Made by a program: the position numbers and the translations under genes | The notes under the pieces: model-generated | Told to the model about the DNA's origin: nothing | The model's input: only the letters and a program-made list of their open reading frames with translations | Databases searched by the model: none | Virus record (IMG/VR): IMGVR_UViG_3300044684_000025 | Span: 1-48,314 of that record | DNA length: 48,314 nt | DNA from: a virus | Strand: one strand, 5' to 3' | Shown: positions 2,883 to 32,587 of the stretch, in pieces | How the letters are laid out: every line of letters starts with the position of its first letter | How positions within the stretch are numbered: position 1 is the first letter of the stretch

Positions 2883-3022
2883 AACCAATGAATACTCAAG
2901 TGATGAATGAGATAGATGATGAGGTGTTCAATTCCTATCGCTAGTGCAGCAACTAGAACAATGAAAAATATCAAAAACGAACTAAAGGCTCCACTCAAAT
3001 CTCCGATCCAATCAGAAGTCAT
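2879..3022 (-). CDS. Small single-pass membrane protein
   Basis: 47 residues, starting at ATG 3022, which overlaps the thyX stop as ATGA. The stop overlaps the start of the SLOG gene in the same way. Residues about 12-38 form one hydrophobic segment (FSSFLIFFIVLVAALAIGI then IIYLI), preceded by an acidic N-terminus (MTSDWIGDLSGA) and followed by HHLSIHW. It should insert in the inner membrane. No family is recognised. The two ATGA overlaps are the main evidence that it is real; a longer reading from 3097 would lie inside thyX. Confidence 0.6.
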   Translation of the reverse strand: MTSDWIGDLSGAFSSFLIFFIVLVAALAIGIEHLIIYLIHHLSIHWL

Positions 3023-3975
3023 GGTTGATAATCCATACAAACGTGATCCACAATCAATTGGCGGTTCTGAATCCAACCTCGGAAGTTGCCAGACCAAGCA
3101 TAACCGTAGCGATCGAAATGTGTGATACCAGAAGAATCCAATGTATCGTTGTCAGGCAACGTGTACAAAAGCACCTGATCGTCTTCGCGGAACTGATCCT
3201 CAACCATCGGCGTCGCTTGATGCTCGAATGGTGATGCGTGTGCCGGTTTGCTTGTGATCAGGCGATTGTAGATTTCAAGAGCCTTCTCGAGCGAGTCATC
3301 GAGACGACGATAGGAAACCTGGGCGCAACAGGAAGCAGAAATAGCTATTGCTTCATTCAACGTCACGCCGAACTGGTCGCTTTCTTCGCCTTCCGAAGGA
3401 CCTGCTGACATCCAGAATCCTGTGCCATAATACGGCACATGCCATTCACCAGGATAGAGTTCATTTGGAGTGTTCTGGTTACGAGTTTCCCACATCTGGT
3501 TGGCCAATTCTTGAATTTCTGGCTGGGCATCAGGATGACGACGTAGGTAGAAGAAATTGTCAAATTCAGTTGCCGTACAAACCACCTTGATGTGGCTGTA
3601 CGGTTCAAGCAAACGATTCACGATCTGTTTGTGATAGCCAACCTTACCAAAGGCAGAAGCATATCCAATTGCGACGTCTCGAGCTTCCTTCCACCATTCT
3701 TCACGATTACGTCCAGCAATAAATGTGTCGCACTCTTCCTTTGCACTCATGCCTGGTTGGTTCTTTCCCCAATGGATCGGCATTGCCGTGTTCTGCTTGA
3801 TCAATTCGATTGCGCGTTCGACAGGAATGGCGCGTGAGGAAGCCGCATTGCGCGAGAACAAACGATGAGTCATGAACTCTGCATGAATGAAGCGCGGGTA
3901 TTCAAGTTCGTATGTTGTGATGCGCTTTCCAGAGGTGCTGACCGAATCAGCGATGATCTTAGCACTGATCGTCAT
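3019..3975 (-). CDS. thyX: FAD-dependent thymidylate synthase ThyX
   Basis: 318 residues. ThyX makes dTMP from dUMP using methylene-tetrahydrofolate, FAD and NADPH. The signature appears as THRLFSRNAASSRAIPVE (residues about 36-53), the phage-type variant of the RHRxxSxNExSxR motif. Further conserved stretches are HKQIVNRLLEPYSHIKVV and ATEFDNFFYLRRHPDAQPEI, which in the family help form the FAD/dUMP sites. Start ATG 3975 overlaps the upstream stop by four bases. In this phage it would supply thymidine nucleotides for replication and, indirectly, the substrate for the predicted thymine modification at 17723-20656. The motif variant lacks the usual NE pair, but I have seen the same variant in other phage ThyX proteins. 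Confidence 0.93.
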   Translation of the reverse strand: MTISAKIIADSVSTSGKRITTYELEYPRFIHAEFMTHRLFSRNAASSRAIPVERAIELIKQNTAMPIHWGKNQPGMSAKEECDTFIAGRNREEWWKEARDVAIGYASAFGKVGYHKQIVNRLLEPYSHIKVVCTATEFDNFFYLRRHPDAQPEIQELANQMWETRNQNTPNELYPGEWHVPYYGTGFWMSAGPSEGEESDQFGVTLNEAIAISASCCAQVSYRRLDDSLEKALEIYNRLITSKPAHASPFEHQATPMVEDQFREDDQVLLYTLPDNDTLDSSGITHFDRYGYAWSGNFRGWIQNRQLIVDHVCMDYQP

Positions 3976-15946: not shown

Positions 15947-16846
15947 TCACTTTTTCTTTTTGGTTTGCTTGTTGGGAGCAGGAGTCGGAGCAACTCCTTT
16001 GTTCTTTGCAAGCTTGGAAGGATCAACTGTCGCAGAAGCGCCAATCGAAGCGATTGCCATCAACGATCCTCCGAAAGTGTATGTGCCCGTATGACTCAGC
16101 TTCATCCAAGGACACAGATAAGTCTTCAGACCAATCTTGCGCGTCCACTGACAGAACATGTAGTCTTCAGACAAATAACGCTTGGAGTCAGGATCTATCA
16201 CCGCGTCGAAAAACGCGCAAATTTCACGCGAACCATCGAAGTGCTCTGTGCGAGCATGATCAGGCTTGTAGAATTGTTGCGGATACGCGGTGCCGAACTT
16301 TTCGAGCGTCTCACGACGAATCATCATGAATCCGGTACCAATTTCAAGTACCTCTGCTGGTTCATCAAGGCGAATTTCAGTCACACCTTCTTTGAAGACA
16401 GGCGAGAACACATAGTCACCAACGAATTGATCCAGAGCATTCGGATCTTGGTCCGCATAACCTTTGTCAACAGCCTGCTTGATCTTTTCCCAAGCAATGC
16501 ACTTCTTCGGATACGGACCGCCGATGATGTCATATGGAGACTCTTCAGACTGAAGAGCAAGCAAAGCAATCACGTCATTCGGATCAAATCCGATATCTGA
16601 GTCAATGAACATGAGGTGAGTCATGCCAGAACGCATGAACTCATCTGCGGCATAGTTGCGCGCGCGAGTGATCAGAGATTCATTGAACAGATAATAGCAG
16701 CGCATTTGAATACCATACTTCATGCACAGCGCTGTCAAGTCTTGCATAGAACGGCAAAAAGCTCCCGTACACTGTCCGCCGTACATTGGAGTTGCCACAA
16801 ACAAAGATCGCTTTTGCAGATCAGCGATTTCCACTTTAATTTCCAA
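15947..16846 (-). CDS. GT-A fold glycosyltransferase-like protein
   Basis: 299 residues. The N-terminal nucleotide-sugar fold has LFVATPMYGGQC, NESLITRARNYAADEFM (residues about 55-71) and HLMFIDSDIGFDPNDV, with the DxD metal motif at D82/D84. Later, GTGFMMIRRETLEKF and SEDYMFCQW resemble acceptor-site elements of phage glycosyltransferases. The C-terminus is Lys-rich (PNKQTKKKK). The acceptor is unknown: virion protein, host surface or hydroxymethylated DNA bases are all possible given the TET/JBP gene three genes upstream. Start is TTG 16846 with AAGGG upstream; GTG 16834 is an alternative. Confidence 0.85.
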   Translation of the reverse strand: MEIKVEIADLQKRSLFVATPMYGGQCTGAFCRSMQDLTALCMKYGIQMRCYYLFNESLITRARNYAADEFMRSGMTHLMFIDSDIGFDPNDVIALLALQSEESPYDIIGGPYPKKCIAWEKIKQAVDKGYADQDPNALDQFVGDYVFSPVFKEGVTEIRLDEPAEVLEIGTGFMMIRRETLEKFGTAYPQQFYKPDHARTEHFDGSREICAFFDAVIDPDSKRYLSEDYMFCQWTRKIGLKTYLCPWMKLSHTGTYTFGGSLMAIASIGASATVDPSKLAKNKGVAPTPAPNKQTKKKK

Positions 16847-17177: not shown

Positions 17178-17723
17178 TTACCTCGTGAATTGATTGCGAA
17201 GCTTTTGCAACTTCTTTTGTTTTTCTAGTTTCTTGAACGCGATTTTCTTTGCCATCGGACCAGCGCGATCAATGAAATTGATACCTTCTTGGTGATCGTA
17301 TTCATGCTGGAAAATGCGAGAAGTCATTCCAGAATACGTGTGCGTTACAGTCTCACCATTAGGAAGAGTGAAACGGACCTTGATGTTCTTGGGACGCTTG
17401 ATCTTGATAAAGACACCAGGATAAGAGAGACATCCTTCATCCAATACGATCTGTTCATCACCTACATCAACGATGCGCGGGTTGAAACAAACCGTGATCG
17501 GATTCGTTGCCATAGCGAAAACTCGATATGGCAATCCAAGTTGATTTGCGGAAATTCCAATGCCCTTGTGCTTGATCAATGCCTGTGCTAGCGTGTGAGA
17601 AAGCAAAACAGGGTCAATCGGAGGGTTGGAAAAATCAAATGGAACGACAGGTTCGTAAAGTACCGGATCAGTATCTGGCACTAACGCAGGAATTTCAACC
17701 TGCGGAATTGTTTGTTCAGTCAT
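17178..17723 (-). CDS. def: Peptide deformylase
   Basis: 181 residues. It removes the formyl group from nascent proteins using a metal ion. All three motifs are present: GIGISANQLG (54-63; family GxGxAAxQ), EGCLSYPG (96-103, metal-binding C98) and QHEYDHQEG (139-147; H140, H144 ligands, E141 catalytic). The C-terminal helix is Lys-rich. Phage deformylases are known from marine and other myoviruses and may favour processing of phage proteins. Start ATG 17723 overlaps the TET/JBP stop by one base, so the two are co-translated. Confidence 0.95.
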   Translation of the reverse strand: MTEQTIPQVEIPALVPDTDPVLYEPVVPFDFSNPPIDPVLLSHTLAQALIKHKGIGISANQLGLPYRVFAMATNPITVCFNPRIVDVGDEQIVLDEGCLSYPGVFIKIKRPKNIKVRFTLPNGETVTHTYSGMTSRIFQHEYDHQEGINFIDRAGPMAKKIAFKKLEKQKKLQKLRNQFTR

Positions 17724-19051
17724 CAGAAAAAGTCATCAAGTGTTGCAACCTTCTGCTTCACAGCTTCAGGATGATATTGTTCAAGTAGGTTTCTATCTAA
17801 AGCTCCAAGCCAATCATACCACTCTTGGAGTTGGAACATATTAGCAGAGACGCCATTCCACAATGGTCGCCATTCTGGGTGCGATTCATTCAAACGACGT
17901 TCTTCAACGTATCCACGACGAGCTTCTTCGTATTCCCATGAACCCAACTCAAGCATCTTTTCGCGGAAATACGCAACAATGCTCATGCGTTCAATGCCGT
18001 CAGGATTCCCATCAACCGCTTCAATTGGTGTGTTACCATGAATAGCATCATGGTTGGCAATTAGAAGCAGATCGCCAGGACGGATGTTGATAGCAACGCG
18101 ATACTCTGGAAGAACGAGATAGCCGCCCTTGAAATCCTTACCAGTTGAAATAACACCAAGGTTCGAGAATCCAACGCCCAAGTCACCAGCATCGCGATGA
18201 GCTGCCGTGCGAAATGTTTTGTTCACAGTGAGCGTGGTAAACACTGTGTCTTCGCCGACGAGGAAGCGTTTATCAATCCGATTGGCAGCAGCCTGCTGAG
18301 CAGTAAAACGTTGCGGAAGAAGCTTCTTGAACGCATGATTCAGTTTGCGAAGATATGGAAAACTCTTTGCAAACAGTTCCGGATTCTTGGCATTGTAAGC
18401 ACAAGAGCGACCATATGGGTATCTTGGATAACGATCAAAGAACCCGGCAACACCAGAGTTCACGGGATTGGCATACGTGGTCTGACTGATACATGTTTTT
18501 GCATATTCAGCAGCACGCTTTGCACGTTCTGGCGGCGGAAGATCAATCACCGATTCCAACCAACGTTCGAAGAATCCTTCATACTCTTCTCCATTGCTAG
18601 TTATCTTAGATCTCAACCATACTAGACCACGAGAAGAATCATCCTTGAACGATGCTTTTGCTGCTATATGAGCTCGGATCGGATCTTCTCCGTCCAGACG
18701 AGCGTTTGGATTTTGGAGCAAATCTAGCGCTTCCATTTGCCAATCGGTCACCCATTCACGGTTCTGAAGTTTTTCACCTTTCGGACCAGCAGCCAGACCG
18801 CGATTTTGAGTTTCAACAGCAGCGCCGATCAAACCTTCGTATACACCACGCTGATCTTCGGCAGAGAAAACATTTTTCCTGAATTTGAACAAACACACGC
18901 TTTCATCTGCGCCAAGTTCACCATCAAGTGAATTGATGCGTGCATAAGCGTCAGTGTCTGAGTCAACAAGGATATCGTAATGCGATTCGTCAAGAAATTT
19001 GCCAAGCAAATGCTCGCAATCTTGCTTATTGAGAAAGAGCTGTTGCACCAT
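17723..19051 (-). CDS. TET/JBP-family 2-oxoglutarate/Fe(II) dioxygenase (predicted DNA base hydroxylase)
   Basis: 442 residues. The C-terminal half has the double-stranded beta-helix signature of TET/JBP enzymes: NKTFRTAAHRDAGDLGVGF with HxD iron ligands H285/D287, FKGGYLVLPEYRVAINIRPG, the distal ligand in HDAIHGNTP (H338) and RMSIVAYFRE (R355, likely 2-oxoglutarate contact). GRSCAYNAKNPELFAKSFP (about 214-232) is typical of the phage branch. The family hydroxylates the methyl of thymine (JBP) or 5-methylcytosine (TET) in DNA. Directly upstream, and overlapping by 26 bases, is a kinase of the 5-hydroxymethyl-dU type, which argues for thymine as substrate. No cytosine methylase is in the window. 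Substrate is inferred, fold is well supported. Confidence 0.88.
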   Translation of the reverse strand: MVQQLFLNKQDCEHLLGKFLDESHYDILVDSDTDAYARINSLDGELGADESVCLFKFRKNVFSAEDQRGVYEGLIGAAVETQNRGLAAGPKGEKLQNREWVTDWQMEALDLLQNPNARLDGEDPIRAHIAAKASFKDDSSRGLVWLRSKITSNGEEYEGFFERWLESVIDLPPPERAKRAAEYAKTCISQTTYANPVNSGVAGFFDRYPRYPYGRSCAYNAKNPELFAKSFPYLRKLNHAFKKLLPQRFTAQQAAANRIDKRFLVGEDTVFTTLTVNKTFRTAAHRDAGDLGVGFSNLGVISTGKDFKGGYLVLPEYRVAINIRPGDLLLIANHDAIHGNTPIEAVDGNPDGIERMSIVAYFREKMLELGSWEYEEARRGYVEERRLNESHPEWRPLWNGVSANMFQLQEWYDWLGALDRNLLEQYHPEAVKQKVATLDDFF

Positions 19052-19592
19052 TTTGTAGAGCTTCCGTGATTGTTTTTATCAGAATTTCAGTATCTTCCGG
19101 ATTCTCATGCTTGACTTTCTGCACATTCATCATCACGTTGAAATTTGTGAGAATGTTGGCATACTTGGTCTCACGTCCTTTCAAGAATTTTTCATCTTGA
19201 TTGGAACCACGTTCTGCATATCGAGAAGCACGAGTCTTCGGATCTACATCTAGGTAGAAAATCTGTGTGTCATAGTTTTCGAGGCAATGTTCAATGAACG
19301 ACAAATTCGTTAATCGATCACCCTCAAACAACACACCAATCACACCACGTGCAGAACACTCTTTCAAAAAGGCAACGGCTTCTGGCTGAACAGCCATGCT
19401 CATACGATCCGTTCCGGCAAACACTTCACCTTCTTCATATTTGCCCAAAACGACGTATCTGCCGAAAGCATGGAATGGAACAAGCTTCCATTCTGTGAAC
19501 ATTTGCTTCCAAGTTCCCCATCGTTCCATGAATTTTCGGACCAAGGTGGTCTTTCCAGTTCCTGGTTCGCCCATCACAATCACAACATGCAT
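19026..19592 (-). CDS. P-loop kinase, predicted 5-hydroxymethyl-dU DNA kinase
   Basis: 188 residues from ATG 19592 (GGAG six bases upstream; ATG 19595 also possible and overlaps the previous stop as TAATG). Walker A is GEPGTGKT (8-15). Later stretches are WKLVPFHAFGRYVVLGKY, FAGTDRMSMAVQPEAV, GVLFEGDRLTN (Walker B-like Glu/Asp) and TQIFYLDVDPKTRASRYAERG, followed by RETKYANIL. This arrangement, and its fixed position between an aGPT-Pplase-like and a dioxygenase gene, fits the kinases that phosphorylate 5-hydroxymethyluracil in phage DNA as the activation step for hypermodification. A nucleotide-level kinase cannot be excluded from sequence alone. Confidence 0.8.
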   Translation of the reverse strand: MHVVIVMGEPGTGKTTLVRKFMERWGTWKQMFTEWKLVPFHAFGRYVVLGKYEEGEVFAGTDRMSMAVQPEAVAFLKECSARGVIGVLFEGDRLTNLSFIEHCLENYDTQIFYLDVDPKTRASRYAERGSNQDEKFLKGRETKYANILTNFNVMMNVQKVKHENPEDTEILIKTITEALQNGATALSQ

Positions 19593-19594
19593 CA

Positions 19595-20656
19595 TTAACT
19601 CCAAAATTGATCTAGAGAAACTACAGCGGGGCTGTCTTCTCCATAGAGCAAGTATAGACGGTCTATACTGCCAATTTCAACGAATTGTGACATACGCTCT
19701 TCTTGGATTCGCCCAAAAAGCAGATCCGGACGCTTCATCAAGATGGGATGTTCATTTCGTGCATCCCACAGTGGTTTCCAAAAGATACCACTCCATCCAT
19801 CCTTTTCAACTTGACTAATTTCTTCTGCCTGACGATCAAGATAATAACCGAGATAACGTCCGTGCTTCACACGGAAGATTTTCTTGAATGAACACAGGGC
19901 AGTTTCCATGGAAAAGAAATCAACCATGTGAAGATTTTCTGGACGTGTTTCCTTGACCCTATCGTAGACTTCTTCGAGAATGCTTTCCGCCTGCCATTCA
20001 AGCCACGCGTACTCATCCTCAGTCAATTTCTCATCAATCCATTCGTCTTTTCCAAGAGCAAGACACAAGCCATTGCGATGCGAGCGACTTCCGGAATAAT
20101 CAGCCAACAATAACGAGTCAGGAAGTAGATTCATTCCGCAACACTGCTTGAGCGCTTGCATGTAAAACCAAGTGGTGTATCGACCGAACTTGTGTAGATT
20201 CTCGCTCAGTTCTGCATAGAGCGCATTAAAATTCGAGCACCCCGCAGCAACACTGGGATTGACGAATTGACTGAATGCTTCTCTTTGATTATTTCCATGT
20301 TTAAACACCCATTCTCTGTATGAAGCGTATTGAGCTGGGAGGTGTCCTTTGTTGTACTTGGTGTCAGTCTGGTAACGGAGCCGCTTATAGTTGCCAGCGT
20401 TCCATTGTTCCAATCGTTCTTGATCGACGAGTTCAAAGTCTGGGAATTCATTGTATAAAATCCAAGTAGTCGGAAAGTGGTAGGTTGTGCCGTACAACCA
20501 AGAAACCCAAAGTTTTTGTTCAACGTTCAATTCAAACCTATCGAACAAATAATTCGCCATAAACACGGCAGGATCACAATCGTCAAATTGAATTGACCAA
20601 TGCATCCATTTTATGAAAGCTTCTCTCCGGTTAATCAATTCTCTGTAGTCTTTCAT
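19595..20656 (-). CDS. aGPT-Pplase / amino acid:DNA transferase-like protein (thymine hypermodification)
   Basis: 353 residues, almost entirely helical. Characteristic stretches are DDCDPAVFMANYLFDRFELN (25-44), WVSWLYGTTYHFPTTWILY (50-68), RLRYQTDTKYNKGHLPA (92-108), HKFGRYTTWFYMQALKQ (155-171), LADYSGSRSHRNGLCLALG (184-202) and METALCSFKKIFRVKHGRYL (250-269). I recognise this as the alpha-glutamyl/putrescinyl-thymine pyrophosphorylase family described for phages with hypermodified thymine, in which phosphorylated hydroxymethyl-dU is attacked by an amine or amino acid. The adjacent kinase supports it. No ribosome site is visible before ATG 20656, and a candidate promoter ends only 12 bases upstream, so the mRNA may be nearly leaderless. 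The attached group cannot be predicted. Confidence 0.85.
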   Translation of the reverse strand: MKDYRELINRREAFIKWMHWSIQFDDCDPAVFMANYLFDRFELNVEQKLWVSWLYGTTYHFPTTWILYNEFPDFELVDQERLEQWNAGNYKRLRYQTDTKYNKGHLPAQYASYREWVFKHGNNQREAFSQFVNPSVAAGCSNFNALYAELSENLHKFGRYTTWFYMQALKQCCGMNLLPDSLLLADYSGSRSHRNGLCLALGKDEWIDEKLTEDEYAWLEWQAESILEEVYDRVKETRPENLHMVDFFSMETALCSFKKIFRVKHGRYLGYYLDRQAEEISQVEKDGWSGIFWKPLWDARNEHPILMKRPDLLFGRIQEERMSQFVEIGSIDRLYLLYGEDSPAVVSLDQFWS

Positions 20657-20668
20657 CTGGAAATTCGT

Positions 20669-20697
20669 TCAATACCGATATCTATGTTAGGAGGAAA
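20669..20697 (-). promoter_or_regulatory. Candidate sigma70-like promoter for the hypermodification trio
   Basis: Minus-strand TTTCCT (20697-20692), 17 bases, TATTGA (20674-20669). The 11 bases GATATCGGTAT spanning the -10 are identical to those of the plus-strand promoter at 27348-27376 and fall at the same spacing. It overlaps the AGGAGG site of the homing endonuclease on the other strand. Predicted start is about six bases before the ATG. Confidence 0.4.
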
Positions 20698-20700
20698 TTC

Positions 20701-21237
20701 ATGAAAATATATCTCATCACCAACACTATCAACAATCATCGTTATGTTGGCAAAACTAAACACGCTTTGAAATTTCGCTTGAATCGACATTGGGTCAATA
20801 GAAATTCAGGAAGGTATTTGTCAAACGCTTTATTGAAGTATGGTAAAGCTGCATTCCAGATATCATTATTAGAAGAAACATCACAAGAATTAGCAGACGA
20901 AAGAGAAAAATTTTGGATATCGGCACTTTCACCAGAATATAACATGACAAAGGGTGGAGAAGGCGGCAACACAAGCATGTTCATAGATTACCAAACTCAT
21001 TCAAACAGAATGAAAGGTAACGGAAATCCAAGATTTGGAATCAAACTAACTGATGAGTTCAAACAAAAGTTATCTGCATCGCACAATAAAGATTTACATC
21101 GTTCGCAAACGATGTCTGCTATAAAAGAAGGTCGACACAACTCTCAAATTATAGAACAATGCATCTATTGCGGAAAGAAAGCAAATCTTCCTAACGTCAA
21201 AAGATGGCACAATGATAATTGTAAACAGAAACATTGA
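20701..21237 (+). CDS. GIY-YIG homing endonuclease with NUMOD3-like DNA-binding region
   Basis: 178 residues, the only plus-strand gene in the window. It has its own strong AGGAGG site. The GIY-YIG core is KIYLITNTINNHRYVGKT, with RLNRHW (catalytic Arg/His region) and LADEREKFWISALSPEYNM (catalytic Glu). GNGNPRFGIKLTDEFKQKL then matches NUMOD3-type DNA-binding repeats of intron/intergenic homing enzymes (Seg type in T4). The C-terminus carries CIYCGKK and WHNDNCKQKH, a possible zinc-binding pair. Its stop meets the GNAT stop back to back in TGATCA. It is AT-richer than its neighbours. It appears to be a mobile gene inserted in the hypermodification operon. Confidence 0.93.
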   Translation: MKIYLITNTINNHRYVGKTKHALKFRLNRHWVNRNSGRYLSNALLKYGKAAFQISLLEETSQELADEREKFWISALSPEYNMTKGGEGGNTSMFIDYQTHSNRMKGNGNPRFGIKLTDEFKQKLSASHNKDLHRSQTMSAIKEGRHNSQIIEQCIYCGKKANLPNVKRWHNDNCKQKH

Positions 21238-21762
21238 TCATTCAGAGATGCTCGGTTCAAATAATTCAACCACGCCGCCTTTTCCTTTCCGGAAAACAGC
21301 GGCATGTATCACAGGTTCATTCAAAATGTAGCGATGTTTGCCTTCATTATCGAATCTGAAAATGCACAACTGGCAACCGGATTTCTGTTTCCCCCAAAAC
21401 TTCAGACCGATGCTCTCATAAAAAGCAACAGCAGATGGTTCTGAAGAAACACGGAAATAATCACAGGTTTCATGCGCTTGATGCAACATCACGTTCATCA
21501 AGAGACGAGCGGCACCCTTACGGCGATGCGCAGCAAATGTATGCAGCAATTGCAAATTTGCGACGTAAGGAAGGCGCTTGCTGATAGTCATGATCACGGC
21601 ACCAGCCAACTCACCATCTTCTGTAAAGGCACCAAGACACCAATCCCATTGTCCTTGCATGTCAGCCTTAGCTACAAAGGTCTTTGCGAATTTATCGGCA
21701 GGATCGTTTGAAATAGCAGAAATGAATTGCTCGCGTGTGCATGGTCTAATGGAAAATGTCAT
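21238..21762 (-). CDS. GNAT-family N-acetyltransferase
   Basis: 174 residues. The acetyl-CoA-binding motif is HTFAAHRRKGAARLLMNVML (74-93; R/Q-x-x-G-x-A type), preceded by a GELAGAVIMTISKRLPYV beta sheet and followed by YFRVSSEPSAVAFYESIGLK, the usual C-terminal GNAT motif. It overlaps the amidoligase gene by four bases (ATGA), so both are translated together. In this context its substrate may be an amine on a hypermodified base or a product of the amidoligase; that is inference. Amidoligase, class II glutaminase and GNAT genes are known to occur together in bacterial and phage clusters. Confidence 0.9.
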   Translation of the reverse strand: MTFSIRPCTREQFISAISNDPADKFAKTFVAKADMQGQWDWCLGAFTEDGELAGAVIMTISKRLPYVANLQLLHTFAAHRRKGAARLLMNVMLHQAHETCDYFRVSSEPSAVAFYESIGLKFWGKQKSGCQLCIFRFDNEGKHRYILNEPVIHAAVFRKGKGGVVELFEPSISE

Positions 21763-22637
21763 GATGGTAGATAGAATTTGCGGTTCTTGCCAGAAGCGTC
21801 AGCAGTTTTCTTCTTGGTTGCAATCCAACCCCTTGCCAATTCAAGATCAAATTGCATAGGAGGAAAATTGAATCCAGTTGTGCGGTAGATTTCACGCCAT
21901 GAAGGTCCATCATTTAACGCGGCATCCATGAATAGTTCTACAGCAAGGAAGCAAGACTCAAGATGATGGCGTTCAAACGAACCACGAAAGCAACGAAACT
22001 CTACTGTCTTGACATGCTTCAAACAGTACGTGTTGATCGCAGTACGAATGGGGCGAACTGTTGCTACGCCATCCTTTGCCGTGTAATGTTGCTTGATGAA
22101 ACTGTTGAAATCTGTTGCGTGCCTGAGGATGTTTTCCACGCGCCACTCTGGCATCATGCGTGCACCATCAAGTTTGAGATAAGTCTTTGCATCAGGCACC
22201 GTCTTCATCTCAGCCTTTTCATAGAAACCATATGTGGTATCCACGAAATCATGCTGGTTTTCTCCAACATATTTGATAAGACGTTTCAATGCATCAATGT
22301 CATCAATCAACCCTGGCACATGAACATGGCAATGATTGTGAGTTGTAAAAGGAGAAGTAGGCGCATGACCTGCTTCCGCAAAGAAATCACGAATCTGTAT
22401 GATGCGATCCACTTGCTTGTGCCAACCAAGCGTGGGTTTGGTGTTTACTTCACCACCAACAGGGGGATCGATTCCGAGCGGATCTGCACAAACACCCCGA
22501 TAAGGACCACGGGTGTTCACAATGTCAGCTTCTGAATGCTCCCATTCACCAAGTTCAGGAGGAATGATCGCAGAACGCGGCACATCACCCATCTCCATTT
22601 CAAACCCATAGGTGAACGTGTTCTTATTGTAATGCAT
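21759..22637 (-). CDS. Amidoligase (COOH-NH2 ligase family)
   Basis: 292 residues from ATG 22637, overlapping the amidotransferase gene by 14 bases. Features of the glutamine-synthetase-like amidoligase family are TYGFEMEMGD (metal-binding Glu pair near 13-15), VGGEVNTKPT (60-69), SPFTTHNHCHVHVPG (95-109) and VKTVEFRCFRGSFE (near 210), the usual arginine/Glu phosphate-binding element. Such enzymes use ATP to join a carboxylate to an amine. With a class II glutaminase beside it, ammonia from glutamine could be the nitrogen donor, or an amino acid could be added. Acceptor unknown; a hypermodified base, a free metabolite or a protein are all possible. Confidence 0.87.
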   Translation of the reverse strand: MHYNKNTFTYGFEMEMGDVPRSAIIPPELGEWEHSEADIVNTRGPYRGVCADPLGIDPPVGGEVNTKPTLGWHKQVDRIIQIRDFFAEAGHAPTSPFTTHNHCHVHVPGLIDDIDALKRLIKYVGENQHDFVDTTYGFYEKAEMKTVPDAKTYLKLDGARMMPEWRVENILRHATDFNSFIKQHYTAKDGVATVRPIRTAINTYCLKHVKTVEFRCFRGSFERHHLESCFLAVELFMDAALNDGPSWREIYRTTGFNFPPMQFDLELARGWIATKKKTADASGKNRKFYLPS

Positions 22638-23346
22638 ATTGTAAATCTGCCTTTGGCTCACGAATCGTTCGATAATTGATCGTTGAAGGTGAATTTGAAC
22701 TCAAATTGAAAGTGTATTCGACGCATGGATAACAAGGTTCTAGAGAACCTTCATGCTCCGCGCCAGAACGAATCAGTATGTCTTTCGTGCTGCCAATTAC
22801 AAGTCTGTTCTTAGCAGAAGAAAAATACAGAGGACGCTCCTCATTACGCCACCAACGAACCGTTCCGTTGCGTCTATCCAAAACGATACAAGCCTGTGAA
22901 GATGGTTCTACTTCCAAGGGATGACGAACGCCTTCTGCATAAAGCTGCGCAAGTATCTCAGAATCATTGCGAGTCTTACACTTAACGCCAAACAATGTTT
23001 CCCATGTTGAAGGATCAGCCTGACTCACAACACCATTGTGTATTAGCGCAACTTGATATTTTCCATCATTATCAGCAATCATGTTTGGTTGATTGAACTG
23101 AAGGTCGGAAGTGGAATATCTGGTGTGAACAATTGCTGCCAAAATAGGCAAATTTCTAAACAAACTCCAATCAACATCGCTCGCCGGTAATGGAAATTTG
23201 GCATGACCCATACAACCATCAGTTTGCAAAAATGCAATACCCGTGGCATGTTGTCCACGAATCTGTGCTTCTAATGCCATTTTGATCAACAGATCAAAAT
23301 CAAACTCCTTGCGATTCCTAGCAGCAAGTCCAACTAATCCACACAT
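22624..23346 (-). CDS. Class II glutamine amidotransferase (glutaminase domain only)
   Basis: 240 residues. The N-terminal nucleophile is Cys2 (MCGLVGLAAR). Other Ntn-hydrolase residues are IRGQHATG (RG 30-31), IVHTRYST (H74-R76), LIHNGVV (N104-G105) and RNDSEILA (D128), as in GlmS/PurF glutaminase domains. No synthase domain follows, so it must pass ammonia to a partner, most likely the overlapping amidoligase. Start ATG lies directly after the gp46 stop (TAAATG). The last 25 residues are more variable and overlap the next gene. Confidence 0.92.
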   Translation of the reverse strand: MCGLVGLAARNRKEFDFDLLIKMALEAQIRGQHATGIAFLQTDGCMGHAKFPLPASDVDWSLFRNLPILAAIVHTRYSTSDLQFNQPNMIADNDGKYQVALIHNGVVSQADPSTWETLFGVKCKTRNDSEILAQLYAEGVRHPLEVEPSSQACIVLDRRNGTVRWWRNEERPLYFSSAKNRLVIGSTKDILIRSGAEHEGSLEPCYPCVEYTFNLSSNSPSTINYRTIREPKADLQYALQ

Positions 23347-31442: not shown

Positions 31443-32015
31443 CTAGTCTCCGAATTTGTAACAGAACAGTTTGATTGGCACGTGGTCAAAAGTTCCGACG
31501 GTTTCTATTGTGGATTTCTTCCGGTAGTATTCGGTGTAATGCTTTTGACGCTTAGAGTCATTGGTTCTAATCCCTTTCAGCTCAACTCCGATTCTCTTTG
31601 AGATTTCGGATAATGATTTTGCACGCTCCTCGTACAGGTACACATGATCTACGTCCATCCAATATGATTGAGGTACGAATCCATCCGTTTTCAAGAATTT
31701 GTTCATGGACAGATAAACCCATTCATCAAATTGATAACGAGGAGCTGGTCCTGAATTGGATTTAGGTCTCTTAGCAAACTCATTTGAGTATTGGTGCTCA
31801 TACAAGCTCACCATGCGTTCCCATGGATTGCGTACGAATGAGAACTTCCAATAGTCATACCATGTATCTTGAAAGATCCATTCTCTCGCAGTGTTCGGCA
31901 TACAGTGTTGTAGAGGACAAACTGCTTGATCCAATCCAAGCTCTTTATACAAAGCATTGCCGCCTGTACGTGGATTGTGGAAGAAGACGGCTTTTGATTT
32001 TTGAAAGATGATCAT
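31443..32015 (-). CDS. Sulfotransferase-like protein (copy 1)
   Basis: 190 residues, start overlapping the stop of the upstream paralogue (ATGA). It has VFFHNPRTGGNALY (residues about 10-23, PAPS 5'-phosphosulfate loop, family KTGGT type) and YWKFSFVRNPWERMVSLYEH (3'-phosphate-binding motif RxxxxxxxSLY). SYWMDVDHVYLYEE and IRTNDSKRQKHYTEYY follow as in sulfotransferase family 2. It probably transfers sulfate, or is a homologue with a different nucleotide substrate. No CysD/CysN/CysC is nearby, so PAPS would come from the host. Confidence 0.88.
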   Translation of the reverse strand: MIIFQKSKAVFFHNPRTGGNALYKELGLDQAVCPLQHCMPNTAREWIFQDTWYDYWKFSFVRNPWERMVSLYEHQYSNEFAKRPKSNSGPAPRYQFDEWVYLSMNKFLKTDGFVPQSYWMDVDHVYLYEERAKSLSEISKRIGVELKGIRTNDSKRQKHYTEYYRKKSTIETVGTFDHVPIKLFCYKFGD

Positions 32016-32587
32016 CCGAACTTGTATCCAAACTGTTTGATGGTCTCTCGATCTATTTCTGCAACGATACCAACCAAATCTTTGTTGTAGTAATCTTGAT
32101 ATGGTTTGCGGACTGTCGCATTATCATGCATCAATGGTTGGATTGGTGGCAGATGTTTGGAAATTTCTTCAACCGCCGTGTCAAGCTCTTCAAACTTGAA
32201 CACACAATCCATGCCTTTCCACCAAAGCGATTGCGGATCACCCCACCAAGTGGCAAAAATGAAGCGATTTCTGTTGTAGAACATCCATTCACGGAAACTG
32301 TAAGCACGAGCTATTTGCTGGCTTTTCCAATTGTACTTAGCGATGTATGGGCTCTGTTTGTGAAACTCATACAGACTGACATAGCGATCCCATGGATTAC
32401 GAACAAATGCAAATTTCCAATAGTCGTTCCAAGTTTCCTGAAATATGGTGGTTTTCGCTTCTTCAGGATAGAAGTGAGAAAGACGTATGTTTTCGCCTTC
32501 TGAAAACCCGAACGTCTGAAACAACGAACGTCCAGCTGTTTTTGGATTATGGAAAAATAAGACTTTGTGACGTTGATTAACAAACAC
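32012..32587 (-). CDS. Sulfotransferase-like protein (copy 2)
   Basis: 191 residues. It starts at GTG 32587 with AGGA seven bases upstream. Motifs are VLFFHNPKTAGRSLFQTF and YWKFAFVRNPWDRYVSLYEF, aligned to those of copy 1, with RKPYQDYYNKDLVGIVAE near the end. The two paralogues share order and length but differ widely in sequence, so the duplication is old or the two were acquired separately. They lie just beyond the gp23 terminator. Acceptor unknown: host surface glycan, virion decoration or a small molecule. Confidence 0.88.
   Translation of the reverse strand: MFVNQRHKVLFFHNPKTAGRSLFQTFGFSEGENIRLSHFYPEEAKTTIFQETWNDYWKFAFVRNPWDRYVSLYEFHKQSPYIAKYNWKSQQIARAYSFREWMFYNRNRFIFATWWGDPQSLWWKGMDCVFKFEELDTAVEEISKHLPPIQPLMHDNATVRKPYQDYYNKDLVGIVAEIDRETIKQFGYKFG

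Follow-up and report, generated by a model that had tools for sequence, protein, structure and literature searches.

A TET/JBP dioxygenase within a predicted thymine hypermodification cassette of a T4-like phage

The DNA stretch analysed here (the window, also G000) is an incomplete IMG/VR virus record of 48,314 bases which carries, on its minus strand, a conserved cassette centred on three overlapping genes for an amino acid:DNA transferase (ADDT), a P-loop kinase and a TET/JBP-type dioxygenase. We consider it probable, at about 0.75, that this cassette directs post-replicative hypermodification of thymine, in which the base would be oxidised within the phage DNA, phosphorylated and joined to an amino acid and then, more tentatively, amidated or acylated; support for this reading is comparative and the chemistry is predicted.

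Judged from its translated genes, the window is a fragment of a T4-like myovirus, since they include recombination endonuclease subunits, a late sigma factor (matching phrog_234), clamp, clamp loader, DNA polymerase, helicase, terminase and capsid proteins. Its nearest contigs are two IMG/VR fragments, L008 and L015, which share 99% DNA identity with it over most of their overlap, and G001, of 166,771 bases, which encodes a TET that is 84% identical to that of the window. The closest named TET, with 68% identity, is that of Stenotrophomonas phage DLP6, and a near-identity DNA search of phage records with the window produced no match. Most of the contigs used in the comparisons are fragments and many are near copies of one another. 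Because the window is incomplete, the absence of a gene from it alone is weak evidence; that it shows no dUMP hydroxymethylase says little, and its relatives were therefore tested.

The core trio

19595..20656, minus strand: ADDT (aGPT-Pplase family), 353 aa; PF18724, E 4.2e-22, 79 bits against a cut-off of 26; phrog_3271, E 5.7e-59
19026..19604, minus strand: P-loop kinase, predicted 5-hydroxymethyl-dU (5hmdU) DNA kinase, 192 aa as listed; PF18751 (Ploopntkinase3), E 2.8e-9, 37 bits against a cut-off of 27
17723..19051, minus strand: TET/JBP Fe(II)/2-oxoglutarate dioxygenase, 442 aa; PF12851 (Tet_JBP), E 8.7e-22, 78 bits against a cut-off of 35

The original prediction, made from the sequence of the window, had named these three overlapping genes in this order of transcription, and Pfam matches above the cut-offs bear out their positions, order and families. 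With the kinase gene as listed, the overlaps are 10 nt (ADDT/kinase) and 26 nt (kinase/TET), and the kinase is likelier to start at the ATG at 19595, which overlaps the ADDT stop, than at the TTG at 19604. The order of the trio is kept in relatives with TET and kinase identities of 74-84%.

The dioxygenase matches phrog_24024 over its full length (E 5e-188) and has an N-terminal region and an insert that are not present in shorter relatives. Its HxD...H iron ligands and 2-oxoglutarate-binding Arg were predicted to be intact, and the residues concerned (H285, D287, H338 and R355) align with the TET2 motif and are invariant across 25 aligned sequences. An AlphaFold2 model (mean pLDDT 89.4) indicates a TET-type double-stranded beta-helix fold that is nearer to TET than to AlkB; its best structural match is human TET2 (Z 21.5, rmsd 3.7, 265 residues aligned) while the best AlkB-family chain has Z 13.7, with others below. 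A search of solved structures from the single TET sequence gave no TET match, and one was obtained only with a profile. Among bacterial genomes, five distant short TETs were found, and neither ADDT nor kinase was detected in the DNA examined.

The kinase carries the Walker A motif GEPGTGKT and adjoins ADDT in most loci. By its sequence it is a P-loop kinase of a hypermodification-linked family, for which phosphorylation of 5-hydroxymethyluracil (5hmU) is predicted, and it gave no match to the HMUD2 family PF18747, which the kinase of Det7 matches. Relatives of the ADDT occur in 376 phage records, mainly ViI-like.

Alternation of TET and ThyA-family genes

ADDT-bearing records were scored for PF00303, the ThyA family, and for Tet_JBP. 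Thirty carried TET only (G001, G003-G014, G016-G018, G021, G023, G024, G026-G035 and Mycobacterium phage Lolalove), 10 carried ThyA only (eight ViI-like or Glutamicibacter phages, G019 and G022), two carried both, and three (G015, G020 and G025) neither. This alternation has a Fisher p of 5e-6, and of 0.007 among near-genome-size records, with counts and p values that ignore kinship and with many of the contigs being fragments. The TET match of Lolalove and those of two others lie below the Pfam cut-off; Lolalove is a member of the Cooper group, and gp2 of Cooper has been aligned with TET/JBP (PMC12730594).

The PF00303 search found no match in the window, itself a fragment, or in G001, and a thymidylate-synthase-family gene was found neither in four TET- and ADDT-bearing contigs measuring 147-167 kb nor in the genome of Lolalove, which is complete. 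The original prediction had named a dUMP hydroxymethylase elsewhere in the genome as one of the observations that would refute it.

Thymine or cytosine as substrate

Thymine had been proposed as the starting base, with a search for cytosine methylases as a check. No match to PF00145, the cytosine-C5 methyltransferase family, occurred in any TET- and ADDT-bearing record searched, including the 147-167 kb contigs, G001, and Cr30 and Lolalove, whose genomes are complete; in the window, which was not itself searched with PF00145, no gene was recognised as a C5-methyltransferase. The TET clade around Methylophilales phage Melnitz served as a control: of its 71 loci, 66 have an adjacent C5-methyltransferase and the other five have the TET gene at the upstream edge of the contig. 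In the tree this clade is separate from that of the window TET. The lack of C5-methyltransferase matches, together with the known role of ADDT on 5hmdU, favours thymine as the substrate of the window TET.

It is unlikely, though less so than the other alternatives, that the cassette acts on cytosine, with a C5-methyltransferase encoded elsewhere producing 5-methylcytosine (5mC), the TET oxidising this to 5-hydroxymethylcytosine (5hmC), and the kinase and transferase building on the latter. Such a scheme draws on the Melnitz-type phages, which group the genes of a C5-methyltransferase and a TET with that of a related kinase, on the TET-associated glycosyltransferases of the relatives L009 and DLP6, and on the phage TETs characterised so far, which reportedly oxidise 5mC (Burke 2021). 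However, besides the negative searches and the position of the window TET outside the methyltransferase-linked clade, ADDT is part of known thymine pathways and the enzyme found with it alternates with the ThyA family. At L007:3281-7361 and in L198-L268, adjacent C5-methyltransferase and TET genes are often accompanied by a kinase related to that of the window, which suggests that these phages may phosphorylate 5hmC.

Several observations, in addition to the neglect of kinship in the counts, weigh against thymine hypermodification as we propose it. Cr30 and G002 carry both a TET and a ThyA-family gene; their ThyA proteins are probably dTMP-makers because they score highly (373 and 206 bits) and keep the thymidylate-synthase-like PPCH and Asn-containing motifs, while the ViI-like ThyA proteins score 35-57 bits and the one sequence inspected is without these motifs. 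Two ADDT contigs have a C5-methyltransferase-like gene, namely G015 (L057), with a partial match and no TET detected, and L073, with an open reading frame (ORF) of this kind at 766-1815 in addition to an ADDT and a short divergent TET, in a record that was not searched whole. The residue three positions after HxD is Asp here and in most presumed 5mC-type TETs; as a marker of thymine or 5mC specificity this residue was rejected, Asp occurring in both main classes, and no residue separating the two substrates was found. DLP6, whose TET is 68% identical and which gave no match to ThyA or C5-methyltransferase, stands on the supporting side, its DNA being described in a review as "restriction enzyme resistant" (PMC8228603), but that resistance is silent on the modified base and DLP6 is without ADDT and kinase matches. 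Finally, the support comes from comparative genomics.

Nucleotide-level and glycosylation alternatives

3019..3975, minus strand: ThyX-type thymidylate synthase; PF02511, E 1.3e-11; phrog_85, E 3.5e-104

The ThyX of the window, adjoined by a SLOG-family gene at 2514-2888, is consistent with dTMP being made and is its presumed source. It belongs to a divergent form common to the window, DLP6 and G001, with PF02511 scores of 36-39 bits where other cassette phages reach about 140-150. We regard it as improbable that hydroxymethyl-dU arises instead at the nucleotide level, from this ThyX-like protein or from an undetected gene, with the TET serving another purpose such as further oxidation. The shared divergence of ThyX would suit such an origin, as would the fact that most of the genome is missing from the fragment, but ThyX as hydroxymethylase is disfavoured by the ordinary ThyX of most other cassette phages and by records in which none was shown, and the TET/ThyA-family alternation holds regardless of ThyX.

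Very improbable, in our estimate, is that the oxidised thymine is mostly glycosylated in the manner of base J, the ADDT/kinase route being minor or defunct in the window phage: DLP6 and S-CBWM1 do have TET and TAGT without ADDT or Ploopntkinase3 matches, and a GT-A-like gene lies nearby (15947-16846), but the ADDT and kinase genes of the window are intact, overlapping and conserved, and no TAGT match occurred among the cassette genes scanned with Pfam, a scan that did not take in every ORF of the window. DLP6 itself (L001:7030-11320) combines TET, TAGT and an NTP-transferase/APH fusion in a genome without ADDT, ThyA, Ploopntkinase3 or C5-methyltransferase matches, and is a candidate base-J-like system.

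The wider cassette and its neighbours

22624..23346, minus strand: stand-alone class II glutaminase; PF13522, E 5e-10; N-terminal MCG; HTRYST, HNG and NDSE motifs
21759..22661, minus strand: COOH-NH2 ligase (Amidoligase_2-like), 300 aa; homologue matches to PF12224 and modelled fold
21238..21762, minus strand: GNAT acetyltransferase, 174 aa; PF13673, E 6e-10; recurs in the cassettes of relatives
20701..21237, plus strand: GIY-YIG homing-type endonuclease ORF between GNAT and ADDT; PF01541, E 8e-11
17178..17723, minus strand: peptide deformylase, overlapping the TET gene by 1 nt; PF01327, E 3e-31; motifs GIGISANQ, EGCLS and HEYDH
15947..16846, minus strand: GT-A-like protein, common near cassettes; phrog_1574, E 3.5e-62

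The original prediction placed the trio correctly at 17723-20656 but drew the cassette too narrowly; the conserved cassette spans about 17178-23346, with the missed glutaminase, amidoligase and GNAT genes lying at the head of the same operon, in this order of transcription, upstream of ADDT. The glutaminase keeps the N-terminal catalytic Cys2 and the glutamine-binding motifs; its weak GlmS/PurF matches in NCBIfam cover the glutaminase part only, and there is no synthetase domain. The amidoligase alone has no Pfam match, but half of its homologues do: of 20 that were aligned, 10 match PF12224 (best 2e-8). Its model (pLDDT 91) resembles the folds of glutamine synthetase and of YbdK/Glu-Cys ligase at Z about 10, which indicates a fold of the glutamine synthetase type. 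The acidic metal ligands are conserved, and E21, E23, E71, H110, H112, R206, E221 and R223 are invariant. NCBIfam contained no family matching the TET, kinase, ADDT, GNAT or amidoligase. In L015, the same junction has no GIY-YIG ORF and there is a 4-nt overlap between GNAT and ADDT; the ORF has therefore been inserted into an operon that is otherwise continuous. The peptide deformylase gene, which also adjoins TET in DLP6, is probably a T4-like neighbour and not a cassette enzyme.

The cassette is widespread among phage contigs. TET, class II glutaminase, amidoligase, GNAT, ADDT and kinase genes recur together in dozens of them, in variable order, and among the 77 IMG/VR loci that extend for 6 kb or more upstream from the anchor there were ADDT in 74, kinase in 70, TET in 66, glutaminase in 65, amidoligase in 42, GNAT in 33 and C5-methyltransferase in one, the ADDT and kinase counts being high by design as one or the other served as anchor. 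Tailoring genes vary: two of the closest relatives (L009:5229-6424 and L011:4442-5643) carry, between amidoligase and ADDT and instead of GNAT, genes for a low-molecular-weight (LMW) phosphatase-like protein and a TAGT-type glycosyltransferase, assigned in L009 by Pfam matches.

A myo-inositol-1-phosphate synthase gene adjoins TET and ADDT-like genes in L108 (6504-7631) and Cr30 (L002:12150-13331), hinting at an inositol-type adduct. Large ORFs with a GIY-YIG-like start lie between GNAT and ADDT in L036 (6463-8004), L144 (5694-7034) and L022 (6650-7999), that of L036 having weak ParB-like matches; Lolalove, Tonitrus and HTVC112P likewise have ParB-like genes flanking TET. Two adjoining sulfotransferase-like genes occur in the window at 31443-32015 and 32012-32587, and DLP6 has one annotated.

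Proposed pathway and its significance

In the first step, the TET/JBP dioxygenase would hydroxylate the 5-methyl group of thymine in phage DNA, yielding 5hmU. The P-loop kinase would then phosphorylate the new hydroxyl, creating a leaving group, and the ADDT would displace the phosphate with an amino acid. This order of kinase and transferase on 5hmdU is carried over by analogy from the ViI/M6 phages, where a 5hmdU DNA kinase is followed by transferases (PMC6449724). The succession from thymine through 5hmU and a phosphorylated intermediate to an amine or amino-acid adduct, as originally envisaged, gains comparative support from the TET/ThyA alternation and the lack of C5-methyltransferase matches.

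The fourth step is more tentative: the glutaminase would free ammonia from glutamine, the amidoligase would couple ammonia or an amine to a carboxylate of the adduct at the expense of ATP, amidating or extending it, and the GNAT would acylate an amine. The product would protect the DNA from restriction. We infer thymine as the substrate, the kind of amino acid and the whole of this fourth step. A narrower proposal, which we offer with less than even confidence, is that glutaminase and amidoligase act on an amino acid already placed on the TET-oxidised thymine, so that a DNA base would come to bear an amide or a short peptide-like chain; if true, DNA-linked amide synthesis would begin with a phage JBP-type thymine hydroxylase, and we know of no earlier description of such synthesis.

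To our knowledge, 5mC is the only base that phage TETs have been shown to oxidise, and only in kinetoplastids has thymine oxidation of the JBP type been demonstrated as a dedicated step of a pathway; no experiment known to us shows a phage TET oxidising thymine. If confirmed, a phage enzyme that hydroxylates thymine and supplies an amino-acid transferase pathway would join the phage TET and base J stories and support a phage origin of the base J type of enzyme, its reaction corresponding in phages to the step with which base J synthesis begins. It would also represent oxidation in DNA in place of substitution in the nucleotide pool. That TET and ThyA-family hydroxymethylases alternate among ADDT phages yields a prediction that is clear and can be tested, and the same core is present in phages of laboratory Mycobacterium smegmatis.

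Comparison with known systems

The systems of ViI, M6 and phiW-14 type share with the present cassette an ADDT and a 5hmdU-DNA-kinase-like P-loop protein, but they have a ThyA-family dUMP hydroxymethylase where a TET is found here; each of the eight ViI-like or Glutamicibacter records that were tested gave a ThyA-family match. Their tailoring enzymes are reported to include acetyltransferases (Lee 2018; Lee 2021), and we know of no glutaminase/amidoligase pair described in them.

The phage 5mC-TET systems, composed of C5-methyltransferase, TET and TAGT, share the TET/JBP fold and family; they differ in the adjoining C5-methyltransferase, none being detected here, and in their separate TET clade. 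In the base J pathway, JBP1 and JBP2 are TET/JBP dioxygenases that hydroxylate thymine in DNA before it is decorated (PMC11065753), as is predicted here. The JBP systems, however, glucosylate 5hmU and mark eukaryotic chromatin, with no kinase or amino-acid transferase.

Further close parallels are the Cooper, Lolalove and Prince mycobacteriophages, in which TET/JBP, ADDT and kinase genes adjoin, one Cooper-type record labelling gp2 'thymidine hydroxylase', and Rhodococcus phage Tonitrus, in which the same three genes were noted as a thymidine hypermodification system (PMC11955845). The TETs of these phages are shorter and very divergent, their gene order differs and includes a ParB-like gene, and no amidoligase, glutaminase or GNAT was seen in the stretch examined. 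Iyer 2013 reportedly predicted hypermodification initiated by TET/JBP enzymes. The three-gene core is thus not new, being present in the Cooper-type mycobacteriophages and Tonitrus; what is new, as far as we can tell, is the T4-like version with its glutaminase and amidoligase, and the test of alternation between TET and ThyA-family genes.

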